NCBI GenBank assembly: GCA_002869015.1 | Contig: PKTT01000002.1 | Coordinates: 1-32,298 of the forward strand | Direction of reading: 5' to 3' | DNA length: 32,298 nucleotides | From: Deltaproteobacteria bacterium | GTDB taxonomy: Bacteria > Desulfobacterota > Deferrisomatia > Deferrisomatales > BM512 | In this document: piece by piece, positions 8,401 through 23,251 of the stretch | Position numbering within the stretch: position 1 is the first letter of the stretch | Layout of the letters: each line of letters starts with the position of its first letter | Position numbers and translations under genes: made by a program | Notes under the pieces: generated by a model | Database searches by the model: none | The model's input: only the letters and a program-made list of their open reading frames with translations | Told to the model about the DNA's origin: nothing

Positions 8401-8429
8401 TTGATTGAAGATGGATTGAATGCGATAAT
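8401..8429 (+). promoter_or_regulatory. Candidate sigma-70 promoter of the mla operon
   Basis: TTGATT (8401-8406) and GATAAT (8424-8429) are separated by 17 bases. The first transcribed base would be near 8436, about 40 bases before the mlaE ATG at 8476. This also argues that the open frame starting with TTG at 8401 is not the true protein start. Confidence 0.5.
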
Positions 8430-8475
8430 TTATAGTCGACGAGTTGATTACCGTCAGCCGACAAGCGGAGAAAAG

Positions 8476-9261
8476 ATGGGCCCGGTACAAGCGTTGGGAG
8501 AGACCTCCCTCTACTATATAAATTTCGCGGGAAAGATGACCCTGCTATTGGGCCAGTGCATCTGGGCCGCTATAACTCCACCCTACGATTGGCGCGCAAT
8601 TTTAAGGCAGATAAACTTCATCGGCGCACGCTCAATGGGTGTAATTATCCTAACGGGCCTCTTCACCGGGATGATCCTCAGCCTACAGGGGTACCATCTC
8701 CTCAGCCAATACGGCTCTGTCAGCGCTCTTGGAGCAGGAGTCGGCAATGGTCTCATTCGCGAGCTGGGGCCAGTATTAACTGCTCTTATGGTTATAGGCC
8801 GGGCCGGATCGGCTATATGCGCCGAGATCGGCATCATGAGAAACTCAGAGCAAATCGACGCCTTGAGCTGTATGGCCATCGACCCGGTGCGTTACCTGTT
8901 GGCGCCAAAGTTTACCGCCTGCGTTTTCTCCATGCTTCTTTTGAGCTTCATCTTTGACGTTGTGGGCATCTTCGGGGGTTACATAGTTGGCGTCGCCCTC
9001 TCCGACGTTAGCTCCGGCAGCTACTTTCAGGGCATGGCAGATGCAATATATTTCAGTGATGTAAAGATGGGGCTATATAAGGCGGCTGTTTTTGGAATCG
9101 TGACCGTATGGATAGCCACCAGCAAAGGTTACTTCGTACATCTAGAGCGGCTTGGCGGTTTCGGAGCCGAGGGGGTTAGCCGCGCGACCACCAACGCGGT
9201 TGTCCTCTCGTCGGTCTCCATACTGCTTTGGGATTATCTAATCAGCGCACTTATGATTTAA
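8476..9261 (+). CDS. mlaE: MlaE-family ABC permease of phospholipid transport, 261 aa
   Basis: MlaE is the inner-membrane permease of the MlaFEDB complex that moves phospholipids between the inner membrane and the periplasmic carrier MlaC, keeping the outer membrane asymmetric. The protein shows the family pattern: amphipathic N-terminus, RSMGVIILTGLFTGMILSLQ, then ELGPVLTALMVIGRAGSAICAEIG, and further hydrophobic helices ending in ILLWDYLISALMI. Start: ATG at 8476 behind GGAG with five bases of spacing gives 261 residues, the usual size; the longer frame back to TTG 8401 overlaps the promoter. It is first in an operon with mlaF, mlaD, mlaA and mlaC. No MlaB (STAS) gene is present in the window. 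Confidence 0.93.
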   Translation: MGPVQALGETSLYYINFAGKMTLLLGQCIWAAITPPYDWRAILRQINFIGARSMGVIILTGLFTGMILSLQGYHLLSQYGSVSALGAGVGNGLIRELGPVLTALMVIGRAGSAICAEIGIMRNSEQIDALSCMAIDPVRYLLAPKFTACVFSMLLLSFIFDVVGIFGGYIVGVALSDVSSGSYFQGMADAIYFSDVKMGLYKAAVFGIVTVWIATSKGYFVHLERLGGFGAEGVSRATTNAVVLSSVSILLWDYLISALMI

Positions 9262-9271
9262 GGAAGACGGC

Positions 9272-10045
9272 TTGAAGATTATCGAGCTTGAGGGAGTATG
9301 CAAATCCTTCGGCAAACAGGAAGTTTTAAAGGACGTCAACCTCAGCCTTGAGGAGGGCAACACGCTAGTAATCGTAGGTGCCTCCGGTCAGGGTAAAAGC
9401 GTCCTTTTAAAGCACATGCTAGGGCTCCACCGTCCCGATTCAGGTAAGGTGCGCGTTTTGGGGCATGAGCTTGGCAAGGCTTCAGAGAGAGAGCTAAAGG
9501 AGGTTAGAAAGCATTTTGGGGTATTATTTCAGAACGCTGCCCTTTTAGACTCGCTTAATGTATTTGATAACGTGGCTCTGCCCTTAAGGCAGCGCACCTC
9601 GCTCTCTTCAAAGCGTATCGCCGAGCGTGTGCATGAGCTACTTGAAATGATGGATCTGCCGGAAGCCCACGACAAATTCCCGGCTCAGCTCTCAGGGGGC
9701 ATGAGAAAACGCGTCGGGCTTGCGAGGGCGCTATCGCTTGATCCCCAGCTTGTATTCTTTGATGAGCCGACCACCGGCCTTGACGTACACAAATCAAATG
9801 AGATCTACCGTCTCTTTCATAAGACCAGGGAGAAGCTCGGCTATACGGGCGTTATAGTAAGCCACGATGTTCCCAAAATATTTAAACTTGCCGACGAAGT
9901 AGCGCTCCTTGCCGAGCGGACAATCCAAGTATCATTACCGCCGGAGAAATTTCAAATTTCTGAAAATCCCCTCGTTAGCTCCTTCGTCAATACGACGATG
10001 GGGCCCGTATATATAAGCGAGAATGAGGAATCGAGGATATCATGA
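9272..10045 (+). CDS. mlaF: MlaF-family ABC transporter ATPase, 257 aa
   Basis: This is the ATPase that powers the MlaE permease. It carries Walker A (GASGQGKS, residues about 37-44), a Q-loop (VLFQNAALLDSLNVFDNVA), the ABC signature LSGGMRKRVGLARAL and Walker B with catalytic Glu (LVFFDEPTTGLD), then the H-loop (VIVSHD). The replacement of the common signature LSGGQ by LSGGM is typical of MlaF proteins. It starts with TTG at 9272, preceded by AAGGAAGA, ten bases after mlaE ends, and overlaps mlaD by four bases (ATGA). Confidence 0.95.
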   Translation: MKIIELEGVCKSFGKQEVLKDVNLSLEEGNTLVIVGASGQGKSVLLKHMLGLHRPDSGKVRVLGHELGKASERELKEVRKHFGVLFQNAALLDSLNVFDNVALPLRQRTSLSSKRIAERVHELLEMMDLPEAHDKFPAQLSGGMRKRVGLARALSLDPQLVFFDEPTTGLDVHKSNEIYRLFHKTREKLGYTGVIVSHDVPKIFKLADEVALLAERTIQVSLPPEKFQISENPLVSSFVNTTMGPVYISENEESRIS

Positions 10046-10488
10046 ATAAAATCAGTACCGAGACCCTCGTGGGGCTATTTGTCATAATAGGCTTCGCATG
10101 CTTTGCCTTTATAGCGATAAAGCTCGGCGATGTGAGCTTCTTTGAAAAGAATGAATACACCCTCTCGGCACGCTTCACTTCAGCCTCGGGGCTTAAAGTA
10201 GGGGCGCCCGTTGAGCTGGCAGGAGTCCGCGTAGGTTTGGTCAAGGGGATATTGGTTGACCCAAAGGAGTACGAAGCGGTCGTCACCTTTACCGTAAAGG
10301 AGGGGGTGGAGCTCCCATCCGATTCAATTGCTTCCATTCGTACGGCGGGAATCATTGGGGATAAATACATCAAACTTACCCCCGGGGGCATGTTTGATAC
10401 GCTGGCGGATGGGGGAGAAGTTTTCGAGACAGAGAGCGCCATCTCCATTGAAGAGCTGGTGAGCAAATATATATTTGAAAAGAATTAG
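10042..10488 (+). CDS. mlaD: MlaD-family MCE-domain lipid-binding protein, 148 aa
   Basis: MlaD forms a membrane-anchored hexameric ring that passes phospholipids between MlaFE and MlaC. One transmembrane helix lies at about residues 9-27, followed by a single MCE domain (residues about 38-117) with the typical sequence GLKVGAPVELAGVRVG and IGDKYIKLTPG. The length matches the family. The ATG overlaps the mlaF stop (ATGA), indicating coupled translation, and the stop codon is directly followed by the mlaA start. Confidence 0.94.
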   Translation: MNKISTETLVGLFVIIGFACFAFIAIKLGDVSFFEKNEYTLSARFTSASGLKVGAPVELAGVRVGLVKGILVDPKEYEAVVTFTVKEGVELPSDSIASIRTAGIIGDKYIKLTPGGMFDTLADGGEVFETESAISIEELVSKYIFEKN

Positions 10489-11340
10489 ATGACCCGGTCG
10501 TCACTACTTATATTTATCTCTTTAGTTTCGCTGCTCTCTTTGGCAGGGTGCGCATCCTCCCCCGAGCGCGCTGACACTTCTGCACCGCCCGAATACAGGA
10601 GCACTACCTCTGTGGACTCAGCGGGGGAGGCTTTGCCAGAGAAGGGTTCCGATGATTTTGAAGACCCCATTGAAGATCCTTTCTCGGACCCATTTGCTGA
10701 TGATGAGAGTGGCCAGACAGATGAGCTCGCCTCAATCAGTGACCCCCTGGAGCCGATAAACAGGGTCTTTTTCTACGTAAACGACAAAGCTTATTTCTAC
10801 TTTTTCAAACCGATTGCAAGGGGGTGGCGAGCTGTCGCGCCTGAGCCGGTCAGGGTAGGCATAGGCAATGTATTCTCAAACCTTATGGGTCCGCTTAGGA
10901 TATTAAACTCTATCCTCCAGCTTGACCTTGAGGGCGCAGCCGGCGAATTTGCGCGCTTTGCGCTAAATACGACCATTGGGCTTTTGGGCTGGTTTGACCT
11001 CGCTTCGGAGCGGGGCTACCCCAACGACAAGGAAGATTTCGGTCAAACCCTAGGCTATTGGGGCGTCGGCACAGGCCCCTATCTGGTCCTTCCCTTCTTT
11101 GGCCCCTCTACCCTCAGGGATGGGGTTGGGCTGGTCGGTGATTTATACCTAGACCCTGTAAATTACACTGATGATGAGTTAAATTGGCATGAGTCAGCAA
11201 TTAAGGCCGGCGTCGAAGCCGTAAATACTTTAAGCCTCGACAAGGATACTTACGAGGGTGTCATCAAGGAGTCGGTAGACCCCTATCTATTTATGAGAAA
11301 CGCCTACCTGCAGAGGCGAAAGGCACAGGTGAAAAAGTGA
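10489..11340 (+). CDS. mlaA: MlaA (VacJ-family) outer-membrane lipoprotein, 283 aa
   Basis: MlaA removes mislocalised phospholipids from the outer leaflet of the outer membrane and hands them to MlaC. The signal peptide ends in a lipobox (LAGC, Cys21). An acidic, low-complexity linker of about 60 residues precedes the VacJ domain: DPLEPINRVFFYVNDK, FARFALNTTIGLLGWFD and QTLGYWGVGTGPYLVLPFFGPST are family signatures. The linker is longer than in E. coli MlaA. The ATG directly abuts the mlaD stop and the end overlaps mlaC by four bases. Having mlaA inside the mlaEFDC operon differs from the E. coli arrangement, where it lies elsewhere. Confidence 0.95.
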   Translation: MTRSSLLIFISLVSLLSLAGCASSPERADTSAPPEYRSTTSVDSAGEALPEKGSDDFEDPIEDPFSDPFADDESGQTDELASISDPLEPINRVFFYVNDKAYFYFFKPIARGWRAVAPEPVRVGIGNVFSNLMGPLRILNSILQLDLEGAAGEFARFALNTTIGLLGWFDLASERGYPNDKEDFGQTLGYWGVGTGPYLVLPFFGPSTLRDGVGLVGDLYLDPVNYTDDELNWHESAIKAGVEAVNTLSLDKDTYEGVIKESVDPYLFMRNAYLQRRKAQVKK

Positions 11341-11948
11341 CCATCAGGTCCATTAGACCATTAAATTTAATTGCCCTTGGCGTCGCGGTGGTCTTTATGG
11401 CTGCTCAGGCGGCCTTTGCCGCTCCGACACCTACGGATGCACTTAAGTCGACAATCGACAAGGTGCTTGTCATTTTAAAGGATGAGACAAAAACCCCACA
11501 GCAACGTAAAGCCGTGGTAGTCGAAACTGTCCGGGAAAGATTCGATTTCACATCCATGAGCCAGTTCGTTCTCTCCAAAAACTGGAGAGAGGCTAATGAT
11601 GAGCAGCGTTCCACCTTCATAGAGAAATTCAGCAAGATACTTGAGAACACTTACGCCGGGCGCCTACAGGAGTATTCCGGTGAAACCGTCAAATATCTGG
11701 ATGAAAAGATAAGGGGCGACAAGGCCCTCGTCGATACAGCAGTAGCTACCGCCAGCGCCGATATACCTATATCTTACAAGCTAAGGGCTGAGGGAGGTGA
11801 CTGGTATATCTATGATGTTGTTATTGAGGGGATAAGCCTCGCAAGAAACTACAATGCCACTTACAACGAAGTTATCCACAAGGAGGGCTTTGACGGCCTC
11901 TTGAAGTTGATGGAAGAGCGCATCCAGAGCGGGGAGTCAAAAGAATAA
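11337..11948 (+). CDS. mlaC: MlaC-family periplasmic phospholipid carrier, 203 aa
   Basis: MlaC (Ttg2D family) shuttles phospholipid across the periplasm between MlaA and the MlaFED complex. A signal peptide ends near residue 29 (AAQAAFAA). The mature part shows family features: RREKVRERFDF-like segment (VRERFDFTSMSQFVL), FIEKFSKILENTYAGRLQEYSG, and WYIYDVVIEGISLARNYNATYNEVI. It starts with GTG at 11337 overlapping the mlaA stop (GTGA) and its own stop overlaps the next ATG by one base (TAATG), so the cassette is tightly coupled. Confidence 0.94.
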   Translation: MTIRSIRPLNLIALGVAVVFMAAQAAFAAPTPTDALKSTIDKVLVILKDETKTPQQRKAVVVETVRERFDFTSMSQFVLSKNWREANDEQRSTFIEKFSKILENTYAGRLQEYSGETVKYLDEKIRGDKALVDTAVATASADIPISYKLRAEGGDWYIYDVVIEGISLARNYNATYNEVIHKEGFDGLLKLMEERIQSGESKE

Positions 11949-12394
11949 TGGAGCCTCGCTGCGCCCACCACCCGCTCCTTAACCATCTCTCCGAGCCGGA
12001 GCGTCTTGCCCTTGGCGCATGTGTAGCCGAGCGAACGATCAAGGCGGGAGAGGCGCTGTGGGATGAGGGGGATGACGCCAACTTCGCGGCGCTCGTAATA
12101 TCAGGCAGGATAGAGCTTCTGAAGAAAACGGAGTTCGGCGGGAGGCGCTTTGTGGTCGGCCTCTTCTCTTCTGGGTCAATCGTAGGAGAAGAAGCATTAT
12201 CTAAAGGCAATGAAAAACGTCCTGAGAGGGCGGAGGTAACAGAAGATTGCACCTTCATGGTTTTGGAGCCTAAGGGCATAAAAAATCTGGCAGACTCAAA
12301 CCCTGCGGCTGCTATAACGGTCCTTTCTCTATTGCTTCAGGTTTCTACTCGCAGGCTCTCGCATGCGTATGAGCGGCTTGCGTCCATATTTTAA
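11948..12394 (+). CDS. Stand-alone cyclic-nucleotide-binding-domain protein, 148 aa
   Basis: The sequence is a single CRP-type sensor domain: a first beta-roll (IKAGEALWDEGDDANFAALVISGRIELLK), then the phosphate-binding cassette region GSIVGEEALSKGN with an Arg close behind (RPERAEV), then the C-helix (NPAAAITVLSLLLQVSTRRLSHAYERL). No helix-turn-helix follows, as the protein stops about 60 residues short of CRP-like regulators. It might bind cAMP, cGMP or c-di-GMP, or another small ligand, and act through a partner. Its ATG overlaps the mlaC stop by one base, so it is the last gene of the mla operon. It ends 19 bases before the converging 30-heme cytochrome gene, with no terminator visible in between. 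Confidence 0.85.
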   Translation: MEPRCAHHPLLNHLSEPERLALGACVAERTIKAGEALWDEGDDANFAALVISGRIELLKKTEFGGRRFVVGLFSSGSIVGEEALSKGNEKRPERAEVTEDCTFMVLEPKGIKNLADSNPAAAITVLSLLLQVSTRRLSHAYERLASIF

Positions 12395-12413: not shown

Positions 12414-15400
12414 CTATTCCCCCTCCCGGCTCCTCCACTCCTCAATCAATGTTTCCCTATGGAACTCTTTGCCAACATCCCACCAAATTTGATGATATTT
12501 ATTAAAATGGTTAATCAGATCATCTTTATGGCAATCCGCGCAGACGCTGTAATCAAGACCCCTTAGGTCCGATAGCTTCAAAAAACTGAACCGATTAGGC
12601 AAAATCGCTCCATACACGAACTCCCTTGAGGGGTTGAAAACATGGGGTTCGTGACAGCTGACACATTGCAGAGAACCATTTGGGACAAGCTCTCCATCCC
12701 TATCATAGAGGGGTATGACAGGGTCCTCACCGGTCCTGATGAACCAGGAGTCAACCATAAGCATCGGCCATTGCAGATAGATGGTATCTCGGTTCGTGTA
12801 CGCTATCTCGCCATCTTGTATATGGTATTGCATTAGGAATGGTTTATCTGCGGAGCGCTTCTCGGCCGTGTGGCATGAACGGCATCTTCTGTTCGGCTCA
12901 AATTCCGCGGGCCCAGGCGTTATGCCCCAGAGGAAATCATCCATAGTCGCTCTATGCGCTGTGTGGCATGGGCCACAGGGGTATGGCAGATCGCCCTCCC
13001 CGGACCCAGGCAAATTATGTGGAGTGCCTGCTACTACGAGCTTATCCGTATGGCAGGCGCCGCATAAGCCGCCCCCCTCAAGCGGCAATCTTAAAAAGTC
13101 CTCAACAATCCCGCCTTTCCCACCTCCCTGTCCATCCGTTTGACCATGAACATTGTGGCAGGTCGAGCAAGTAACCAATTTGCCGTCGGAGTTTCCAAGT
13201 GAGTCGTAATGTGGAAGCGTCGAAAAGCCCTCCTCAATGCCATCCACATTTACCGAATGAGAGCGGGCCCCATGAAAGGGTGAGTCATCCAATGACTCCT
13301 CTATATGGCAACCAGCCGACATACACTTCCTATCGTTCCAGGTTCCTATTCCCTGCACCATCAGCTCCCACACCCTCGGCCGCTCGCCACCATTTGCATG
13401 CAGCTTATGGCAGTAAGTACAAACCTCTCCCTTACCCATGGATAAGGGAGAGTGGTTTGATGATAGGATGCTAACCTTCTCTATGTGGCAGGAAACGCAG
13501 AGAATTGGTGGGTTTTTGGTCTCCCTGCGCATGGAGCCAGGCACATGCATGGTATGGCAGGTAGGACAGCTGATGAACCCTTTTGGCTCTCGGTTACCAT
13601 CTATCCCGAAAAGAGGCAGCTCACCCGTTTCCCGCTGCCAGGGAGGGGCGCCGCCCATTGAGTGCTGTACCGATGAATTCATACCGTTACCATGACACTT
13701 GCGGCAGAACTGCTCAATAACGTCGCCATTGGAGTAATCCTTTATCCTGCTGACTTCGCGGTGCGGCCTGTGGCATGGCAGGCAGCTGTCGCGCGTCTCT
13801 TCTGGTTTTGCTGATATCTTTGAGATATCGGTTTTAGTGCCATCATGGCTACCGCTCAGCACGCCAACCTTATCCCCGTGGCATTTGAGACATAGCGTCG
13901 ATGGCTCTTGCTCTCGCAACATCTTTCGATTGTTTGAGTGGGGGTCGTGGCAGGTGGGGCAGTACACCTCCCCCTCTATGCCGCTTCTCAGAACTTTATC
14001 GAATAAAGGATATTCACCCGGAGATACCGTCTTAGCGCCGGTGTGGTCTGTTCTCTTGACGTCGCCATGACACTCACGGCAAACGCTCGCCGGGGGCGCA
14101 TCGCCGTGTGTCTTGTGGCAAACTGTGCACCCGCGTTCATCGCCACCATGAAGCGGCACATTTTTTCTCTCTTCATGGCAATCTACACAATTTGATACCG
14201 GCGATTGCAAGGGGTTATGTACGGAGTGGCAGCTACCGCATGAGAGCACCTTGCGAGTCTCATTAAAGGGTGAGCCGCCATCAATAGTCTGCTCCCCTTG
14301 GGACGCGTTGAGCTCAACGCCAACGGGGTGCGCGCCTCCCATCTTCCCCGAAACGGTATAAGGATTTTGGGCAAGGTGACAATAAAGGCAAGAGGTATCT
14401 TCGTTTTTATTGAGCAGTTTACCGAAAGGAGCGTCATGCATCACGTGGCAGGTAACGCACTCCAAGGTCCCGTCATCGTTGATTTTGTAGCCCTTTTCAC
14501 CTACGAACTGAAGCACCCCCTCCTCCATCTTTGATGATGGCCCGTGTCTTCCCATTTGGGCGGCATGGCATTCGGCGCAGAGCATGGCGCCTTTGTTCAG
14601 AGTCTTAAGGTAGGCTACAGGTTTCCCTCCGGGCTTAACTGGGTTGTGTATTGAATGACATCCCAAACAGCCCGTATTCCCATCTGCCGTGTGGCTGCCA
14701 GTGCTTGTCGCATTTTCGTGGCAGGAGGTGCATTGGCGGTCACCAACGCCTTTATTCGGCTCAGCGCCGTGGACCTGATGGCAGTCATAGCAGGATTCGT
14801 AGGGCGGGGTCACCTTTTGCGTTACAGCTGAGTTTGGGTGACAAATCAGGCATAGAGTTTCACTATCTCCCTCACCCGGCAGAAGTGGCATCAATAAAAG
14901 CGATTCTCCCCTCGCCCCATGAGGATTGTGACAACTTCTACAGCCCATCTCCCCGCCGCCACCTAAAAGACCCCCTTTTGACAAAACTCTGCCTTTGGCG
15001 GCCTCGTCACTTAGGACCATGCCATTATGGTAGTGATTCATCTTTTCGTGACAGGAGGTACAAACACCATTAAGGGGTTCGTCGCCGCGAAGCCATCTCT
15101 TTGTCAGCGCACTCTTTCCATGTGCTGTGTGGCAGCTACCGCATTGAAGTTTGCCGCTAAAAACGGGAAATGCTTTAGAGGATGCTTTAAATGATACGCC
15201 GGTTGGGTGCTGCCCTCCAAAAGTGAGCCTGTGCCGGCTATCCACAACCGAGCCGTTGTGACAGGACCAGCAATTGTACTCCATAGCCCCCTCGTACCCC
15301 TCCTCCAGCCCTGGGGAACCGTAGAGGAGTTCATAAGCCTTTACGTCTCGACCAGGGTGGCAGAGGACGCAGGGGCGCCCCTCGGCCGGGCCACCTGAAG

Positions 15401-15449
15401 CAACCGCCAATGCAAACTGAGGCGAGAAAATGAGCGCCAGAAGCGCCAA
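12414..15449 (-). CDS. Exported 30-heme c-type cytochrome, 1011 aa
   Basis: By reading the protein I count 29 CxxCH motifs plus one CX4CH (CMSAGCH, about residue 700), so up to 30 covalent hemes, one per roughly 34 residues; many are followed by distal His-containing segments suitable as second axial ligands. A hydrophobic N-terminus (ALLALIFSPQFALAVASG) marks export through Sec; there is no lipobox. The protein is expected to act as a long-range electron conduit in the periplasm or at the cell surface. The start is doubtful: TTG at 15449 is the first common start, but it leaves a signal peptide without a basic end, whereas upstream in-frame codons encode RIRLIY and a CTG at 15458 overlaps the preceding stop (CTGA). 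It is the last gene of the cytochrome/TonB operon. Confidence 0.93.
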   Translation of the reverse strand: MALLALIFSPQFALAVASGGPAEGRPCVLCHPGRDVKAYELLYGSPGLEEGYEGAMEYNCWSCHNGSVVDSRHRLTFGGQHPTGVSFKASSKAFPVFSGKLQCGSCHTAHGKSALTKRWLRGDEPLNGVCTSCHEKMNHYHNGMVLSDEAAKGRVLSKGGLLGGGGEMGCRSCHNPHGARGESLLLMPLLPGEGDSETLCLICHPNSAVTQKVTPPYESCYDCHQVHGAEPNKGVGDRQCTSCHENATSTGSHTADGNTGCLGCHSIHNPVKPGGKPVAYLKTLNKGAMLCAECHAAQMGRHGPSSKMEEGVLQFVGEKGYKINDDGTLECVTCHVMHDAPFGKLLNKNEDTSCLYCHLAQNPYTVSGKMGGAHPVGVELNASQGEQTIDGGSPFNETRKVLSCGSCHSVHNPLQSPVSNCVDCHEERKNVPLHGGDERGCTVCHKTHGDAPPASVCRECHGDVKRTDHTGAKTVSPGEYPLFDKVLRSGIEGEVYCPTCHDPHSNNRKMLREQEPSTLCLKCHGDKVGVLSGSHDGTKTDISKISAKPEETRDSCLPCHRPHREVSRIKDYSNGDVIEQFCRKCHGNGMNSSVQHSMGGAPPWQRETGELPLFGIDGNREPKGFISCPTCHTMHVPGSMRRETKNPPILCVSCHIEKVSILSSNHSPLSMGKGEVCTYCHKLHANGGERPRVWELMVQGIGTWNDRKCMSAGCHIEESLDDSPFHGARSHSVNVDGIEEGFSTLPHYDSLGNSDGKLVTCSTCHNVHGQTDGQGGGKGGIVEDFLRLPLEGGGLCGACHTDKLVVAGTPHNLPGSGEGDLPYPCGPCHTAHRATMDDFLWGITPGPAEFEPNRRCRSCHTAEKRSADKPFLMQYHIQDGEIAYTNRDTIYLQWPMLMVDSWFIRTGEDPVIPLYDRDGELVPNGSLQCVSCHEPHVFNPSREFVYGAILPNRFSFLKLSDLRGLDYSVCADCHKDDLINHFNKYHQIWWDVGKEFHRETLIEEWRSREGE

Positions 15450-15454
15450 ATATA

Positions 15455-15664
15455 TCAGGCGGATTCTGGTTTCTCCCTTTTGAAGAGGAAAAATGCGCCT
15501 CGGACCTCACCTTCGGCGTTAGTGTACGGAATTGAGTTCACGAGCTCCCAACCCTCCCCGCCCGCGCGCTGCGCCTTGTCGAGATTAAGCCCCTCCTTGG
15601 GCAACCCTCCAAATGGTTCGGGGTTGGGGATGAAAATTTGTCCATACTCCCATTTTTTGCTCAT
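15455..15664 (-). CDS. DUF4177-like small protein, 69 aa
   Basis: The short protein begins MSKKWEYGQIF and contains GEGWELVNSIPY, then GAFFLFKREK. The pattern WEY near the start and GxEGWELV in the middle is characteristic of DUF4177, a small family of unknown function. No signal peptide or membrane segment is visible, so it is probably cytoplasmic, which is odd among exported redox neighbours. I start it at ATG 15664, which overlaps the NHL gene stop by four bases (ATGA), rather than seven codons earlier. It ends beside the start of the 30-heme cytochrome and may matter for translating it. Confidence 0.75.
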   Translation of the reverse strand: MSKKWEYGQIFIPNPEPFGGLPKEGLNLDKAQRAGGEGWELVNSIPYTNAEGEVRGAFFLFKREKPESA

Positions 15665-16533
15665 TTCACATACTCCTCCAGCCACCTCACGCTCCCTCTA
15701 CGCCCCTCTACGAGGAGAATCCCCTTACCGAAAGCGGCATCGTAGTGAAGATGAAGCGGGTCATTGTACTTCCTGTTACCGGGCCAGAAGAGATCCCAGC
15801 CGCTGCCATAATAGTTGAGTCTTGCGACGCGCCCTGAAATGCCGTCGGCAACCCAGACATAGCCCCACTCGTCAACCGCAACACCCGTCGGCCGGGTAAT
15901 CCCGGTATCGCCGAGGTCATAGGCAGCTTCGAGCTCTCCATTGTTACTTATTCGCAACAACGAAGGGCCCATCGGGTCGGTTACATACCCTGTACCATCA
16001 CCTCCGAGGGCCACTGCGTAGGGGCTCTTTAAAAGCTCGTTACCCTTTTTAACGCCACCGAGATATTCGCCATCATAGGCAAAGAGGAGTATAGCGGCGG
16101 GGTCCTTGAAAGTTACCCAGACGATGCCGCTGCCTGCCGCGACTCCCGCGACCTGACGGTAGGTGCCAGGAGTGTCCAGATGAAGCGCATCACCATCCGG
16201 TATCCCTGCTCGATACTCCTTCAGCCAAAGCTCCCCCTCAAGGTGAAGCACTAAAAATAGCAGACCCGTTTCATCGCTTGCTATCCCCACTGCCCCATCG
16301 GATCCCTGAAGGATCTTCCAGCTTTTGACGGAGTCATTTTCAAGAAAGCCCACCTTCACGCGAGTGCGGCTCTCAAGGAGCGCAACGCCATCGCGTCCAC
16401 CCTCAAGGGTCGCCGTCACCGCAGCACGCGGCAAAAGGTTCCCGTCAGAGACAATACCAGCTGCTGATACAACACCCCCCAGGCATAAAGCCATGCAAAG
16501 TGCCGCGGTGAGATAAATAAATCGGCTCGGCAT
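15661..16533 (-). CDS. Exported NHL-type beta-propeller protein, 290 aa
   Basis: A signal peptide (MPSRFIYLTAALCMALCLGG...SAA) is followed by repeating beta-strand units with NHL/SMP-30-like phrases: GVAAGSGIVWVTFKDPAAILLFAYDG, PYAVALGGDGTGYVTDP, and PTGVAVDEWGYVWVADGISGRVARLN. The most regular units lie in the second half. Such propellers frequently accompany multiheme cytochromes and may serve as protein-binding scaffolds; no enzyme activity can be assigned. ATG at 16533 overlaps the preceding stop (TGATG). Its position between the diheme protein and the 30-heme cytochrome suggests a part in the same envelope assembly. Confidence 0.8.
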   Translation of the reverse strand: MPSRFIYLTAALCMALCLGGVVSAAGIVSDGNLLPRAAVTATLEGGRDGVALLESRTRVKVGFLENDSVKSWKILQGSDGAVGIASDETGLLFLVLHLEGELWLKEYRAGIPDGDALHLDTPGTYRQVAGVAAGSGIVWVTFKDPAAILLFAYDGEYLGGVKKGNELLKSPYAVALGGDGTGYVTDPMGPSLLRISNNGELEAAYDLGDTGITRPTGVAVDEWGYVWVADGISGRVARLNYYGSGWDLFWPGNRKYNDPLHLHYDAAFGKGILLVEGRRGSVRWLEEYVK

Positions 16534-17039
16534 CAACGCCTCCCCAAATATCTGAGCACACTGAGGTCTTCCAGCACTCTAAGGCGTGGGCCTGAGTAGA
16601 GACCGCCTAGGATCTGAGAGCGTCTTCGGTGGCATGTCTTGCAGTCAAGAGGAACTTTCCGCTTCGCTACGTCATCATCACTTTCAAGAACCTCTACCCA
16701 TAATCCCTCTCGCACCTTTCTGGAGAGCGCCAACTTCCCACTCTCCAAGCGCTTTACGTATGAGCTCCTCCCCTTCATGTGACAAGGGGAACACTCCATA
16801 GCTCTTAGATGGAGGTTCAGGAAGGCTGCATTTTCAACTTCCGGCCCATGTGGGTAATCACCTGAGTAGCTTGTCCCGGCCCTATCCTTTGTATGGTACT
16901 CGCCAATTAGGGGACCGCTGCTAGCTACAGCAGCAACCTCTGGAACAAAAATGTCCAGATTACCGAATAAGGCTATTAGACCCATTAAACTGGCAAGAAA
17001 AAGAATGGAGGCAAGTGTGCGTGTTAATTTACCGGCCAT
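16533..17039 (-). CDS. Membrane-anchored or exported diheme cytochrome c, 168 aa
   Basis: Two heme motifs are visible, CSPCH (about residue 83) and CKTCH (about 137). The N-terminus has one hydrophobic helix (residues about 8-30), which could be an uncleaved anchor similar to small quinol-linked cytochromes or an ordinary signal. The rest has no recognised domain. ATG at 17039 overlaps the preceding stop by one base (TGATG) and its own stop overlaps the NHL start likewise. Sitting directly after the quinol-oxidase-like c/b fusion, it may pass electrons from it onward. Confidence 0.82.
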   Translation of the reverse strand: MAGKLTRTLASILFLASLMGLIALFGNLDIFVPEVAAVASSGPLIGEYHTKDRAGTSYSGDYPHGPEVENAAFLNLHLRAMECSPCHMKGRSSYVKRLESGKLALSRKVREGLWVEVLESDDDVAKRKVPLDCKTCHRRRSQILGGLYSGPRLRVLEDLSVLRYLGRR

Positions 17040-18781
17040 CACTCACCCCCCTCTTCTTCAATACGCCTTATCAATTCTCGCGCTTTTGGTGCGGGAGCAC
17101 CGAACTCATCCTGAGCAAGATATTTTTTAAGGACAATTGCCGCCCTCTTCTTGTCGCCTGACTTATAAAGAGATACGCCAAGGTTATAGAGCGCCTGGGA
17201 ATACCCTGGGTAAAGTTCCAATGCTTTTATGAAATGCAGCGCCGCCTCCCTGTAGCGACCCTCAAGCGCTGCGCTATTGCCCCGTTCAAGCAGTTCCTCC
17301 ACAGAAACGCTCTCGTCAACGGGCTCATCACCGGGTTCGAGGCCCTGATTAAGGTCGCTTACTATCTCCTCCGCCCAACCCCGGCGCATCATCCAAACCC
17401 TGTTAAAGGGCGAACGGCCGGTAATCCAGGAGTGGTTGAACCAAAGCGCTCCGGGTTGAAGTAGTGAAAAGTAAATGTGCCAAGCAAGGCAGATGACAAA
17501 TAAGAGGCCCAGGGCCAAGTGAATTGAAGCTGCCTCCATAAGGCCATTTGGCCCCAGGAGAGTGGAGAGTCTGCCTGGATTGGACATTGCAAAGCCGGTG
17601 AAAGCCATTGTTGGAACAAGGAGGAAAAATAGCCCGTAGGAGAAGCGCTCCTTATAGCCAAATCGCCCGTAAGGGGTGACATTTTTCATGACTCCCAAGT
17701 GCCAGAGGAGGCTCTTAAAAAATTGCCCTATATCTCCAGGTCTGGGCAGCAAACCTACTGGGGTCAACCCCTCAAGCCAGTCCACACAAAGTTTGGCAAG
17801 GTGTAGCAGCCATGCTCCCAGGAGAGAAAAGCCGAAGAGCCCATGGAAAGTTGAGAGTAGTCCCGTCTCCAACCCCAAACTCTTTGCTAATGATGGGAAG
17901 TGCAGCAGCGGCCCAGTGGCAAGAGCAAAAACGCCACCTGCTAAAGCTAAAATATGTATCCACTTGTTAATTGGGTCGAAAATCTCCACAGAAGATGGCG
18001 TGGTCAGACCATCTTCAGCCCTTACCCTCTCACCCCTGAAGGAGTGCAATAACAATATCCCTGCAATAAAAAGAGCGATAAACCCCATTGCTGACCTTGA
18101 ACCAGCCCAGGGTTTCAGGCTTGCCCCTTTGCCATGGTCGAAGACCGCGCCAAAGGAAATCGGTTTGTCAGGGTGGCAGCCGGAGGTCGAGCATGCCCCC
18201 CTCGCAGCTTCAGCTGAGCCTATCCCGTGATGCCCGTGGCATGTCTTGCAAGTTGGCGCACGCCCGTCGGCCCTTGCGCGCGCATGCCCGCGCTCGGCGA
18301 TAGCGCCTATAGAGGAAGGGTAAAGTCCATTAGGAGAGTCGAGAGAGGAGTGGCAGCCAGTGCAGAGTATCTCTCCTCGACTACCGCGTGCAGCCGAGCC
18401 GGCGTCATGACAGTTGAGGCAAGGCACCTTCCCGCTCCGGGCATGGGCTGAGCCCCTTTCATTATCCCACTGGGCTTTGTGGCTTGCATCCCGTACATGA
18501 CAGGGTAAGTCACACCTGACCTCCATCTCATCGCGGTGGGGGTAGCCACCAACCTGTTTATGGCAATCAGCGCAGGGAAGCCTGCCATGAACAGAGGTGT
18601 CAAAGAAATCCACCTCAAGCCATAGCGCCTTCTCACCATCGTGAAGGCCCGTGGCCCCGTGGCACTCAAGGCATGCATCAGCGCCAAGCGATCCCCCAGG
18701 CGCCAATAAAATAGCCGTTAGGAGGATTGAGAGAGTTGCTCCCGCCCTAATCCAATTCAATCGTGAAATAGACATCAACAT
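17039..18781 (-). CDS. CbcL-like multiheme c / b-type cytochrome with C-terminal TPRs, 580 aa
   Basis: After a signal peptide the first 210 residues carry seven c-heme motifs: CLECH, CADCH, CDLPCH (CX3CH), CLNCH, CTGCH, CKTCH and CSTSGCH (CX4CH). A transmembrane helix (about 225-245) leads to a b-type cytochrome region of HydC/FdnI type with His-bearing helices (WIHILALAGG, STFHGLFGF, LHLAKL, SIHLALGLLFVICLAWHIYF), suited to two b hemes. The C-terminal 100 residues are TPR repeats (ALEGRYREAALHFIKALEL, SQALYNLGVSLYKSGDKK). Geobacter CbcL, an inner-membrane quinol oxidase for metal respiration, has the same c-plus-b design but not, to my knowledge, the TPR tail. Expected role: take electrons from menaquinol to periplasmic cytochromes. 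The start may be ATG 18781 or 18775; both overlap the TonB-like gene end. Confidence 0.88.
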   Translation of the reverse strand: MLMSISRLNWIRAGATLSILLTAILLAPGGSLGADACLECHGATGLHDGEKALWLEVDFFDTSVHGRLPCADCHKQVGGYPHRDEMEVRCDLPCHVRDASHKAQWDNERGSAHARSGKVPCLNCHDAGSAARGSRGEILCTGCHSSLDSPNGLYPSSIGAIAERGHARARADGRAPTCKTCHGHHGIGSAEAARGACSTSGCHPDKPISFGAVFDHGKGASLKPWAGSRSAMGFIALFIAGILLLHSFRGERVRAEDGLTTPSSVEIFDPINKWIHILALAGGVFALATGPLLHFPSLAKSLGLETGLLSTFHGLFGFSLLGAWLLHLAKLCVDWLEGLTPVGLLPRPGDIGQFFKSLLWHLGVMKNVTPYGRFGYKERFSYGLFFLLVPTMAFTGFAMSNPGRLSTLLGPNGLMEAASIHLALGLLFVICLAWHIYFSLLQPGALWFNHSWITGRSPFNRVWMMRRGWAEEIVSDLNQGLEPGDEPVDESVSVEELLERGNSAALEGRYREAALHFIKALELYPGYSQALYNLGVSLYKSGDKKRAAIVLKKYLAQDEFGAPAPKARELIRRIEEEGGE

Positions 18782-19616
18782 GTATGTCCGCCTTGACCGC
18801 AGGGAAGGGCCAATTATCGACCTCTTCCACTACCCGGTTAACAAAGAGCGCAAAGCGCTCCTGAGCTTCTTTGGTGGCTGGTGTTTTGAGTTCCCGCTTG
18901 ACTATATTGCCCTTTTCATCGGTCTTCAGCCGGTAGTAGACGCGGCATATGTTCTCCTTAAACTTGCTCTTCTTCACCTTTACGATGTCCGGGTAGGGTA
19001 TTCTTGGTGGGTGTAGCTGCAAATCGGTAACCGGATATGTATTGACCACAACCCGTATTAGCGAATCCAGCTCAACCTCCTCGTCCGCATACCCATCGCC
19101 ATCACCGCTGCCGCCGCTTTGTGAGCCCCCGACATCAGCCTCGCCAAGCGCAACTGAGTCCCACTTTGACTCCTCGCCCGAGAGCTCATCCTGATACTCT
19201 GCAAGCTCTTCCATCAACTTCTGGAGTTCCCTCTCCTGCTCGGAAGAATCCTCGGCATCCTTGGAACGGAGCCCGGTAACGTGCTCCAGCGCTTCAGTTG
19301 ATTTAGGCGCCACCCTCTCAGGCTCTACGGCCTTGGCGGGCTCGGGAGCTTTACGCTCTCGGGTTCGATTAGCCTTCTCCCCTTGCGCCAAAGCCTTTTT
19401 CTTGCCGGGGAGCCTCTTTACCTCCTCGCGAGGCGGCGGAGGAGAGTAGCTCCTAGCTACCATGACCCTTCTGGCACGCTCCATGACAGGGCTGTAACCA
19501 ATTTTGGGGCCCCAAAAAATCAGTATGTGGAGGATAAGCGCAAGGACCAGACCGACGATGAAACCAAAGCGCCTTCGCCTCTTCTCGCGCTTTCGCTCAA
19601 GGTCGCCCTCCCACAT
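18747..19616 (-). CDS. TonB-like energy transducer, 289 aa
   Basis: A basic cytoplasmic N-terminus (KREKRRRRFG) precedes one transmembrane helix ending LALILHILIFW, with the His in the helix that is typical of TonB/TolA-like proteins. A short proline stretch (SPPPPREEVKRLP), a long charged linker of about 110 residues and a Gly/Ser/Asp-rich segment follow, then a C-terminal domain of about 90 residues (DIVKVKKSKFKENICRVYYRL, ending in DVYFTIELD) resembling TonB_C. TonB proteins transmit proton-motive force from ExbBD to outer-membrane receptors. ATG at 19616 overlaps the exbD stop (TAATG). It is wedged between exbD and the CbcL-like cytochrome. TolA-like or adventurous-motility-type partners are alternatives. 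Confidence 0.78.
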   Translation of the reverse strand: MWEGDLERKREKRRRRFGFIVGLVLALILHILIFWGPKIGYSPVMERARRVMVARSYSPPPPREEVKRLPGKKKALAQGEKANRTRERKAPEPAKAVEPERVAPKSTEALEHVTGLRSKDAEDSSEQERELQKLMEELAEYQDELSGEESKWDSVALGEADVGGSQSGGSGDGDGYADEEVELDSLIRVVVNTYPVTDLQLHPPRIPYPDIVKVKKSKFKENICRVYYRLKTDEKGNIVKRELKTPATKEAQERFALFVNRVVEEVDNWPFPAVKADIHVDVYFTIELD

Positions 19617-20026
19617 TATTCCTTCTCTTTCGCCACCGTGGGCAGCGCAACGTCTCTAACACCTGCCTTTAATAGCTCATCCATAACGTCGGCTACGATC
19701 CCATAATTGACATTTCTGTCGCTCTTAACCACAACCGGTCGGGAAGGGTTCGCGGTGCGCTTTGACGTTATATAGGGGCCAATCTTCTCAAGCCCCATCT
19801 TCTGCCCGTCGGCAAAGACCTCCCCCTCCTTCGTCACGGAGATAACCACCTCTCTGGTCGGAACGGACTCCCTTACTTCCGTGTCTGGAAGCTCAATCAC
19901 TATTCCGCTGTCCACTGCAAATACTGTAGTAAGCATAAAAAAGATGATGAGCAGGAAGGCGATATCAGCCATCGATGACATCGGCACAGCCTCATCGTCT
20001 TCAGTTAACCTGCGCTTAAATTTCAA
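19616..20026 (-). CDS. exbD: ExbD/TolR-family proton-channel subunit, 136 aa
   Basis: ExbD forms the proton-conducting motor with ExbB. The single transmembrane helix carries the essential Asp in MADIAFLLIIFFMLTT, followed by a periplasmic domain ending in NYGIVADVMDELLKAGVRDVALPT, a standard ExbD/TolR pattern. I place the start at TTG 20026, directly behind GGAGG with eight bases of spacing inside the exbB end; the resulting N-terminus (LKFKRRLTEDDEAVPMSSM) has family length, whereas an ATG at 20095 would add 23 basic residues and overlap exbB by 80 bases. Confidence 0.93.
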   Translation of the reverse strand: MKFKRRLTEDDEAVPMSSMADIAFLLIIFFMLTTVFAVDSGIVIELPDTEVRESVPTREVVISVTKEGEVFADGQKMGLEKIGPYITSKRTANPSRPVVVKSDRNVNYGIVADVMDELLKAGVRDVALPTVAKEKE

Positions 20027-20678
20027 GGTAGGTTCCTCCAATCTCCTCCCGAGAGAGTTGGAGCGCCTGCTTCTCCTCAGCATTTTCAAGGGCATCCAGG
20101 AATCGCATCGACGCCTCCTCCATCTCCATGACGAAGCTGTTTACCTTGCCCATGAGGAGGGAGTGGACAAAAAATACGGGGATAGCAACGGCCAGGCCGC
20201 CAGCGGTGGTGATAAGCGCCTCGGAGATGCCAACGGCAACGGCGGCGGGGTCTCCGGCCCCGGCTTTGCCCATTGCCTCAAAGGCGTTGATCATACCGGC
20301 TACGGTCCCAAAGAAGCCTATGAGCGGGGCGGTCTTTGCGACCGCCTGCAACAGTGAGAGCCCCTTTTCGAGTCTCCCCACCTCTACGTTGCCACGAGTC
20401 TCAATGGCCCGCTCTACCTCACCCCTGCCTCGCTTTACTTTCTCCAGTCCGGCGGCAAGGATTCGCGCCATCGCCCCGTGACCCGAGCGAGCGCTCTGAA
20501 GGGCGTCATCGTAGCGCTGCACCTCAAGCGCCGCTGCTATGCGTGCAAGAAAGGTTTCAGTATCCGTGCGGGCTCGATAAAGCGTTATCGCTCTTTCCGC
20601 CATTACGGCAATTGCTACTACTGAGAGAGCAAGCAACGGCCACATTGCCGGGCCGCCCTTTTGAAAGAGTTCAATCAT
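20016..20678 (-). CDS. exbB: ExbB/TolQ/MotA-family proton-channel subunit, 220 aa
   Basis: Three transmembrane helices are visible: residues about 12-30, APLIGFFGTVAGMINAFEAM (about 115-135) and ISEALITTAGGLAVAIPVFF (about 149-170), with a cytoplasmic domain between the first two. The second and third helices match the ExbB/TolQ consensus that lines the proton path around ExbD. ATG at 20678 is preceded by AAGGTGG at six bases. It begins 12 bases after the 12-heme cytochrome and overlaps exbD, so motor and cytochrome are translated from one message. Confidence 0.95.
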   Translation of the reverse strand: MIELFQKGGPAMWPLLALSVVAIAVMAERAITLYRARTDTETFLARIAAALEVQRYDDALQSARSGHGAMARILAAGLEKVKRGRGEVERAIETRGNVEVGRLEKGLSLLQAVAKTAPLIGFFGTVAGMINAFEAMGKAGAGDPAAVAVGISEALITTAGGLAVAIPVFFVHSLLMGKVNSFVMEMEEASMRFLDALENAEEKQALQLSREEIGGTYLEI

Positions 20679-20690
20679 GGCTATCCACCT

Positions 20691-22088
20691 TTAATCGTAA
20701 CGTGCATGGCATGGCGTACAGAGCTCTGCAAAGGATGGGACCCTCCAGCGGAGTTCCTCCTCGGCGCCGAGAGCTTCGCTTCCACTCGTAACACCCTTAT
20801 CATGGGGGTTGTGGCAAGTGGTGCAAGAGATCATGCCCTTGGAATCTATGGGCATGAAGACCCTGTGGCGCTCCTCATAATCCTCAAGTTTCGCCTTCTT
20901 CTCAGGGCTGATTTCAACTATGTGATTTATCCCGCTTGGGTGGGGGCTTGAGTTGTGGCATTTGACGCAAAGCTCAAGGGGGGAAAATTTGTAGGCCAAT
21001 ATTCCCGGGTCCTCCAGCTCAAAGTCTTCGGTGCGGATGTGGCAGAAAACACAGGCGGAGGTTACGATATTCCCCTTCTCGTCGACCTGCCTATGCGGGC
21101 TCAGCCCCCCATCCCCTGCCTTTGGGTGGCAGTTATAGCAAAAGTCTGTAAAAGCAGAATATGGACCACCCCTTAAAAAGGCCCTGTTTCTCTCTGAAAC
21201 CGGCTCATTGCAGGGCTCGTCATGGCAAGTTGAGCAGGTGGTCTTACCATCTTCAGCAAGTGGAAAATTCAAAAAATCCATTGGATATGTTTTTTCGGAG
21301 GAGAAGACCTCCGTCGCGTGAACCGCTTCATGCCTTACGGCATGGCACCTAACGCAACGTTGGACCGGATCGTCATCGAAGAAGACCGGCGTACCGAAGG
21401 GCTTCATATCCTCGGTATGGCATGCCAAACACCCACCCTTTGATGCGTGGGGATATATATGGATGGAATTTTTCGCGAAATCTTTGAAGCCTAGCTTTAG
21501 AGATGAGGATGAAACCTGCTTTGAATGCATATCATGGCAGGTTGAGCAGGTAAGGGATTGCCCCTCCTCGGCAAGCCCGGCCACAACCAAATCTCCGATT
21601 GCACTTTCAGGGTCATCAATCACCCTTGTGTGCTCCCTTCCGGCATCTTGGTGACACATCCTGCATAGGTCAGCCACATTCTCTCTATCGGTAGCTTTGC
21701 CGTCCAGCGTTCTGAAGGTCATAGCTGTGGGCTCGGCTTTCTCATCCGGCGGGGTGAGGTGGCAGAAAAGGCACATCGTCGCGGAGTGGGGGTTCACCAC
21801 TACCCTTGAGGTGGGCGCTTCAAGCTTTCCCGAGAGCGTTTCATGGGCCATTGCAAGGGAGTCCTCGTCATCCGCCGTGACAAGGAAGAAGAACATCTCA
21901 CCCTCCCGGTGGCAGACCTTGCATGTTTTTTTAAGGAGTTTGTGCTCTTTTTCATCGGAGCGGATGATAAGAAAGGACCCCTCACCCGCCAGCTCCCCAC
22001 CATCGGGAGGGTCAGCTGCAAACAGCGAAGATGCCATTGGGAGAAGAAGCGCCGCCAATAGAAGAAAACGAAACAATATGGACATCAT
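20691..22088 (-). CDS. Exported 12-heme c-type cytochrome, 465 aa
   Basis: Twelve CxxCH motifs are present in order: CKVCH, CLFCH, CRMCH, CSTCH, CLACH, CVRCH, CSTCH, CYNCH, CVFCH, CVKCH, CTTCH, CTPCH. The first follows a signal peptide (SILFRFLLLAALLLPMASSLFAAD), without a lipobox. There is no other domain; many motifs are followed by His-rich turns that can supply second ligands. It is expected to carry electrons in the periplasm. Starts at paired ATG codons 22088/22085 behind GAGGG; an in-frame TTG nine codons earlier lacks a ribosome site. It is the first gene of the operon, 33 bases behind a good promoter. Confidence 0.93.
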   Translation of the reverse strand: MMSILFRFLLLAALLLPMASSLFAADPPDGGELAGEGSFLIIRSDEKEHKLLKKTCKVCHREGEMFFFLVTADDEDSLAMAHETLSGKLEAPTSRVVVNPHSATMCLFCHLTPPDEKAEPTAMTFRTLDGKATDRENVADLCRMCHQDAGREHTRVIDDPESAIGDLVVAGLAEEGQSLTCSTCHDMHSKQVSSSSLKLGFKDFAKNSIHIYPHASKGGCLACHTEDMKPFGTPVFFDDDPVQRCVRCHAVRHEAVHATEVFSSEKTYPMDFLNFPLAEDGKTTCSTCHDEPCNEPVSERNRAFLRGGPYSAFTDFCYNCHPKAGDGGLSPHRQVDEKGNIVTSACVFCHIRTEDFELEDPGILAYKFSPLELCVKCHNSSPHPSGINHIVEISPEKKAKLEDYEERHRVFMPIDSKGMISCTTCHNPHDKGVTSGSEALGAEEELRWRVPSFAELCTPCHARYD

Positions 22089-22120
22089 CCACCCTCGGGA
22101 AACCCAAAATTTCAATACCC

Positions 22121-22150
22121 TTTATACTTAAGAACCCGGCGTTTTGGCAA
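22121..22150 (-). promoter_or_regulatory. Candidate promoter of the multiheme cytochrome / TonB operon
   Basis: On the minus strand TTGCCA (22150-22145) and TATAAA (22126-22121) are 18 bases apart, placing the transcript start near 22114 and leaving a short leader before the ATG at 22088. A 6-bp-arm palindrome lies about 37 bases upstream of the -35 box. Confidence 0.45.
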
Positions 22151-22348: not shown

Positions 22349-23251
22349 GTGAAACGTAACCTGCTAAAAAATCTTGCCACCCTGGCTATCGCGGGGGTTC
22401 TCGCGGCTGCCCCTGCTTGGGCAGACTCATTCAAGAGAACCCATGAGGGGGAGACATACAAGGACTTTACCCTCTCAACCCTTGAGGGGGAAGCTAAAGC
22501 CCTTTCTGAGAACCTTGGGAGCGAAGGAACTATCCTTGCCTTCTTCGCAACGTGGAATTCACGCTCGGAAGAGGTCTTGTCAGATATTCAAAAGCTCCAC
22601 GAGAAGTATGGCGCTAAAGGTTTAAGCGTTATAGGGGTAAACGTAGAGCATGCCGAATGGTCACCCGAAGAGGAGCCTCTGATACGAAAAGCGATATCCG
22701 ACGCGGGCGTTACCTTCCCTGTGCTGGTGGACAAAGACTTCACCGTCTATAACGACTACGGCGTAATCGCGGTGCCCTCTATCGCCCTCATCGACGGAAG
22801 CGGAAAGATACTCAGGCTCACCACCGGTTACTCATCCACCGGTAAATATGAGTTCAAGGATTCAGTAGAGTCCGTCATGGGCGTTGAGAAAAAACCGGTG
22901 GTCGCCGAGACAAAGGGCTACCACCCGGATACTATGGCGCTTAGGAATGGTAAAATGGCGGAGCGCTTCTTTGATAAGCGCATGTACGCCCGGGCAGAGA
23001 AATATGCATTAAAAGCAATTGAGATAGATGAAAACTATGTTGACCCATACCGCCTCCTGGCAAAAATTTACAAGGAGGCTGGAATGAATGATGATGCGAT
23101 GGCCGCCTCAAAAGCGGCTGACGATATTGAGCGGGCATTGAAGGCCAATGAGCAGGGCATCGAAAAACAGCCTGCTGAAAAACCCGATGATAAAAATGAT
23201 GGCGGCGGGACCTCGACAAAGCCGGAAAAGATAGAGAAGCCCCACGCTTAA
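22349..23251 (+). CDS. Exported TlpA/AhpC-like thioredoxin-fold protein lacking cysteines, with TPR tail, 300 aa
   Basis: A signal peptide (residues 1-25, ending AWAD) precedes a TlpA/ResA-like domain of about 140 residues: FTLSTLEGEAKALSENLG, then the active-site region FFATWNSRSEEVL, then the cis-Pro loop VIAVPSIALID. In active relatives the motif reads W-C-x-x-C; here it is W-N-S-R-S, and the whole protein contains no cysteine, so it cannot do dithiol chemistry. Residues about 190-255 form TPR-like helices and the C-terminus is a charged, low-complexity tail. It starts with GTG behind AAGGA and ends at a terminator. Divergent from the multiheme operon, it might serve as a binding or assembly protein for exported cytochromes, which is inference. 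Confidence 0.85.
   Translation: MKRNLLKNLATLAIAGVLAAAPAWADSFKRTHEGETYKDFTLSTLEGEAKALSENLGSEGTILAFFATWNSRSEEVLSDIQKLHEKYGAKGLSVIGVNVEHAEWSPEEEPLIRKAISDAGVTFPVLVDKDFTVYNDYGVIAVPSIALIDGSGKILRLTTGYSSTGKYEFKDSVESVMGVEKKPVVAETKGYHPDTMALRNGKMAERFFDKRMYARAEKYALKAIEIDENYVDPYRLLAKIYKEAGMNDDAMAASKAADDIERALKANEQGIEKQPAEKPDDKNDGGGTSTKPEKIEKPHA

Follow-up and report, generated by a model that had tools for sequence, protein, structure and literature searches.

A Ton/Tol-type motor gene set kept within a multihaem cytochrome cluster

The window analysed here is the whole stretch of 32,298 nucleotides (32.3 kb), with which a contig of 103 kb begins in a genome of 2.53 Mb. Positions 12414–22115 hold nine genes on the minus strand, A to I, in which we counted haem motifs and assigned domains with Pfam:

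20691..22115, minus strand: A, 12-haem c-type cytochrome with a signal peptide and without a lipobox (12 CXXCH)
20016..20678, minus strand: B, ExbB/TolQ-type proton-channel subunit (PF01618, E 1.4e-32)
19616..20095, minus strand: C, ExbD/TolR-type subunit (PF02472, E 1.8e-27)
18747..19616, minus strand: D, putative TonB/TolA-like force transducer, with one transmembrane helix carrying His30, a long linker and a TonB-fold C-terminal domain (residues ~184–289)
17039..18781, minus strand: E, 7-haem periplasmic cytochrome (E1), di-haem b561-type membrane domain (E2) and cytosolic TPR domain, fused (PF01292, TPR)
16533..17042, minus strand: F, membrane-anchored 2-haem cytochrome (haem motifs)
15661..16536, minus strand: G, secreted NHL six-bladed beta-propeller (PDB relatives: NHL/Pizza propellers and the PknD sensor domain)
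15455..15685, minus strand: H, small DUF4177-like cytosolic protein without a signal peptide (sub-threshold domain match)
12414..15449, minus strand: I, 30-haem secreted cytochrome (29 CXXCH and 1 CX4CH)

All nine genes named in an earlier, sequence-only reading of this DNA are present, and its counts of 12, 7, 2 and 30 haems are borne out by the motifs (12 CX2CH in A; five CX2CH, one CX3CH and one CX4CH in E; two in F; 29 CX2CH and one CX4CH in I). Its NHL propeller likewise has six-bladed propeller relatives in the PDB. The DUF4177 label that it gave to H falls below threshold (E 0.03), but a weak match recurs in 10/10 H homologues. A is predicted to be periplasmic or to lie at the outer-membrane face, and some relatives of F have 3 haems. 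C probably starts at 20026 rather than at 20095, and the annotated TTG start of I (15449) cuts into its signal peptide. No sigma-70 promoter or terminator signal at the cluster rose above chance. The same genome contains many further multihaem loci.

This arrangement is not limited to one genome. A search with E over the window's whole class (12 genomes) located E in all four families, and the order A-B-C-D-E-F-G-H-I is common to the loci read from families f1, f2, f3 and f4, with three copies broken by contig ends or spread over contigs. Genes outside the cluster are common only to members of family f1, to which the window belongs, and this marks the limits of the cluster. The TonB-like gene D is found in 11/12 genomes of the class; in the only member without a match (G006), A stands at the edge of a contig of 3.3 kb, so the rest of its cluster was probably lost in gaps. 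A profile search with D matched 15/395 genomes sampled over the phylum (11 in the window's class, 2 in a second class and 2 in a third), and class-wide follow-up in the two further classes matched 2/2 and 4/26 genomes. Strong matches to H (E < 1e-30) fell in exactly the same 15/395 genomes. Full-length matches to A, at 570–693 bits, also numbered 15 genomes (those with D, minus G004 with its cut contig, plus G006); the next best match scored 266 bits, and A orthologues at 570–693 bits are confined to motor-bearing lineages. Because all of these genomes fall in three classes, the counts are not independent events. In the third class (L069, L071) the order is A-B-C-D-E1-E2-F-G-H-I, and in the second A–G form one unit and H–I a second unit elsewhere, both kept in G032 and G069. 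Such conservation across classes excludes chance adjacency.

The multihaem/b-type fusion for which E had been called CbcL-like stands for the window, but most relatives outside the window's family encode it as two genes: fused E occurs only in that family, and a 7-haem gene followed by a b561+TPR gene is found in families f2–f4 and in one member of f1 (G002). A scan of contigs with E matched the sister species only. H is 62–92% identical within the class, compared with ~38–62% outside the genus for the cytochromes around it.

Several genes border the cluster. Convergent to it, at window positions 8401–12394, is an Mla lipid-transport operon with its full set of genes (for MlaE, ABC ATPase, MlaD, MlaA and MlaC), and then a gene with a cyclic-nucleotide-binding domain; MlaC and the latter gene, and MlaE where covered, stay beside the cluster in family f1 relatives. 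On the other side, a divergent gene (22349–23251) that flanks A in family f1 encodes a thioredoxin-like protein with TPR repeats, which could be a cytochrome-maturation factor. Genus g4 has, directly after the 30-haem gene, a gene for a secreted protein of 427 aa that is HEAT-repeat-like in appearance (L045:15821-17104 and L046:4286-5569). In the third class, the gene immediately upstream of A encodes a PEGA-domain protein (L069:5978-7279 and L071:13261-14547) and has feoB and the gene of an iron-dependent regulator as neighbours.

The sequence-only reading had proposed a complete ExbB–ExbD–TonB set. ExbB and ExbD are clear in Pfam, which also recognizes the multihaem and b561 domains of the cluster. 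D has no Pfam match at 0.01, and its identity therefore rests on structure. Residues 184–289 were modelled by AF2 mostly at good confidence, and Foldseek and VIA placed the C-terminal domains of TonB and TolA at the top of the matches, the best with a Z of 6.3 over 77 residues. Z values of 5–6 are moderate, yet TonB and TolA entries make up nearly all of the top matches. We therefore assign D as a TonB/TolA-like transducer by its C-terminal fold, and a transmembrane histidine present in all 13 cluster D homologues that have an N terminus agrees with its TonB-like label. The membrane histidine of the transducer contacts the motor in both ExbBD–TonB and TolQRA (PMC12204202). The equivalents of ExbB Thr148 and Thr181 are kept in the cluster ExbBs, and that of ExbD Asp25 in every homologue that covers it, one ExbD fragment being without the aligned stretch. 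Judged by these key residues, the cluster motor is intact.

The motor genes also form a lineage of their own. In the ExbB tree, the cluster ExbBs make up one side of a branch (support 93/91), apart from other ExbB paralogues. Three other ExbB loci occur in the window's genome: one is a Tol-type set that includes a TonB_2-domain protein, another is an ExbBD pair linked to TPR, and the third combines a TonB_C protein with TPR neighbours. The cluster clade of ExbB was not seen detached from cytochromes in the 395 genomes. Conserved order, strict co-occurrence, a separate ExbB clade and intact catalytic residues thus support the earlier suggestion that this motor is dedicated to the cytochrome cluster. 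We also observed in G069 a gene for a 2076-aa secreted protein (L073:3393-9623) that has HEAT-like repeats by appearance and ends in the TonB-like C-terminal domain of D; no cytochromes are encoded nearby.

Weaker A-like matches in other families sit in clusters with a matching order: A-like, a 6–7-haem E1, a b561 E2, a 3-haem F, the NHL protein G and a 16–22-haem I-like cytochrome. The A-like gene stands last in one variant. Such clusters (L181, L186, L188-L192, L195 and L196) are common across the phylum, some genomes having two, and may represent a general electron-transfer module. Over 208 kb of these loci we found no gene for ExbB, for ExbD or for a TonB-like or DUF4177-like protein, and none of the five E2 relatives tested from them has a TPR domain. 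By contrast, in motor clusters the TPR domain is fused to E2 or a separate TPR gene follows it, and I and its relatives have 29–30 haems. The motor genes, placed between A and E1, thus form with the TPR domain and with H, placed between G and I, an accessory set whose members occur together and which is added to a common electron chain. As the form without them is frequent in the phylum, the motor is an addition and not a general requirement; these motor-less chains show that electron transfer in general proceeds without need of one. The NHL tree is compatible with a single gain of the motor, without demonstrating one.

The electron chain itself contains recognizable elements. E2 has five invariant histidines in 11 sequences and matches the formate dehydrogenase subunit FdnI (1kqf_C, E 7e-8), consistent with a di-haem b-type quinol site, and E is predicted to be a quinol oxidoreductase. 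In the copies of E1 that we read, the five CX2CH motifs and the CX3CH motif are kept throughout, and the CX4CH motif in two of three classes. By sequence, I has no relative in the PDB and A has weak partial matches only (NrfB, OmcS), and we do not claim a nanowire identity for either. The AF2 model of A was too poor for use (mean pLDDT 47.6). We also dropped a TonB-box-like strand at the mature N terminus of A, a by-eye call, as short hydrophobic stretches occur in some motor-less A-like proteins as well.

On balance, and with slightly better than even confidence, we favour the reading that the locus encodes a quinol-oxidizing electron-export complex of the Cbc5/CbcL type whose dedicated Ton/Tol-type motor acts on the complex's own outer component. 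The nine genes would then specify one trans-envelope machine. From the families to which its parts belong, E would oxidize menaquinol at its b-haems, and electrons would flow via the 7-haem domain and F, first to A and then to the 30-haem I, in the direction of the outer membrane or of an acceptor outside the cell. The proton gradient, acting through ExbB–ExbD, would drive D, which would span the periplasm and pull on or remodel a component of this complex in the outer membrane or at the cell surface. This component would most likely be A, G or I, or a barrel encoded outside the cluster, which itself contains no outer-membrane barrel gene. The effect would be to assemble, position or open the conduit. 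Found only with the motor, the TPR domain and H may couple the quinol oxidase to it on the cytoplasmic side. The stronger form of this proposal, in which part of the proton gradient does mechanical work on the cell's own cytochrome conduit, by opening, assembling or positioning it, and extracellular electron transfer is thereby energized, is a tentative one to which we give somewhat less than an even chance.

The two nearest rivals share with the favoured reading a motor that serves the cytochrome machine. According to the first, the motor acts as TolQRA with G in the place of TolB, and bridges the membranes or constricts the envelope at the cytochrome complex. The periplasmic haem chains could thus reach across, and the energy would go to architecture and not to the conduit. 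Consistent with this, TolQ/TolR models give the ExbB and ExbD of the cluster higher scores than exbB/exbD models do, the best family model for D is TolA (a weak match), the fold of D fits both TonB and TolA domains, and a six-bladed propeller is encoded in the cluster. However, there is no OmpA/Pal-like gene, and hence no Pal-like lipoprotein, within the cluster, and a separate Tol-type motor locus stands elsewhere in the genome. G also occupies the same position in motor-less clusters, so it is not a motor-specific partner. Taken together, we consider a tether of this kind unlikely.

According to the second, D drives the export or surface assembly of I as a filament or surface wire, with H as an accessory for I. 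H stands directly before the large cytochrome gene even where the H–I pair is detached, and I has 29–30 haems with the motor and 16–22 without it, as would suit such a role. The cluster, however, contains no secretion channel, and H has no signal peptide. We regard an export or assembly motor, too, as improbable.

The classical role of a Ton motor would be to energize a receptor for iron, haem or another metal, which the cytochromes would then reduce. An iron link is possible, because the copies in genus g34 (L069, L071 and L120) adjoin feoB, and L069 also adjoins a gene for a regulator with iron-dependent-repressor and FeoA domains. TonB-dependent receptors are moreover present in other cluster-bearing genomes, including G002 of family f1 and those of family f2. 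However, Plug domains (PF07715) were missing from the window's genome (G000) and from G001, G003 and G004, and receptor barrels (PF00593) from G000 and G003, in searches that detected the positive controls from E. coli, Caulobacter and Bacteroides. The two genomes that lack both domains are rated 95% (G000) and 100% (G003) complete, and the motor is intact in them. In addition, no receptor was recognized beside any copy of the cluster, where one had been thought worth seeking. It follows that, in most of family f1 at least, no canonical TonB-dependent receptor can be the client of this motor. Receptor-mediated metal uptake, one of the functions considered in the sequence-only reading, is not supported, at least for the window's family. 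Neither of the outcomes that would have refuted that reading was seen: the gene order is shared beyond this genome, and no TonB-dependent receptor that the motor could serve was found in it. We consider a classical role very unlikely. Least probable of all is a motor with a separate job that is co-located for shared regulation only: motor-less clusters do exist, but the three motor genes are kept between A and E over three classes despite products down to ~25–50% identical, and H and the TPR domain co-occur with them.

Proton-driven motors of the ExbB–ExbD–TonB kind are normally used for nutrient import, and the passage of electrons out of the cell along multihaem chains is regarded as downhill, with no energy required at the outer membrane. 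The cluster suggests that running or building the electron-export machinery costs some cells energy. A dedicated motor inside such an operon, in genomes with no TonB-dependent receptor detected, would imply that electron export demands mechanical work of some bacteria, and the Ton/Tol motor family would gain a role beyond transport, envelope constriction and gliding. The motor-less relatives provide natural controls.

Among known systems, the chain resembles Geobacter Cbc5 in composition at least as much as it does CbcL, both being compared by description. Cbc5, a menaquinol:cytochrome complex (cbcEDCBA; CbcBA with OmcQ/CbcC), has 7-haem c, b561-type b, 12-haem c and 2-haem c subunits (PMC7726332, PMC7894505, PMC11434368), which are the haem counts of E1, E2, A and F. 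Its descriptions include no ExbBD–TonB, TPR, DUF4177-like protein or 30-haem cytochrome, all of which are present here, and they present CbcE, the fifth subunit, as a membrane protein, whereas the cluster has an NHL propeller. CbcL, with nine c-haems and six helices, joins a periplasmic multihaem domain to a membrane domain of the di-haem b type in one protein (PMC9129911). E shares this described architecture but has 7 haems instead of 9, adds a TPR domain and is split into two genes in other families. The N-terminal multihaem domain and C-terminal b-type membrane domain with conserved histidines of the CbcL/MtrH/MtoC quinol oxidoreductases are likewise found in E. The MtrB/PioB barrel of MtrAB-type porin–cytochrome conduits was found in 0/9 genomes (PF11854), in a search specific to this type of barrel.

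On the motor side, the cluster shares with Ton systems motor subunits above the family cut-off, the key residues, a transducer with a transmembrane histidine and the TonB C-terminal fold; it differs in that no receptor was found in the window's genome and the motor lies inside a cytochrome cluster. With Tol–Pal it shares the highest-scoring TolQ/TolR models and a propeller protein nearby, but it has no Pal in the cluster, and its propeller, an NHL protein, occurs also without the motor. That the same type of motor can drive other envelope tasks has a precedent in AglRQS and further family members that do not serve transport (PMC12204202), although, unlike this cluster, they are without cytochromes. 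Cytochromes are never mentioned in that 2025 survey of periplasmic force transducers. In the open-licence PMC literature searched, no paper joins NHL repeat, multiheme and ExbD, and other co-mentions are unrelated or treat the systems separately. As the sequence-only reading had supposed, no system of such composition is described in that literature; the combination joins a motor and a cytochrome cluster that are each of a known kind.
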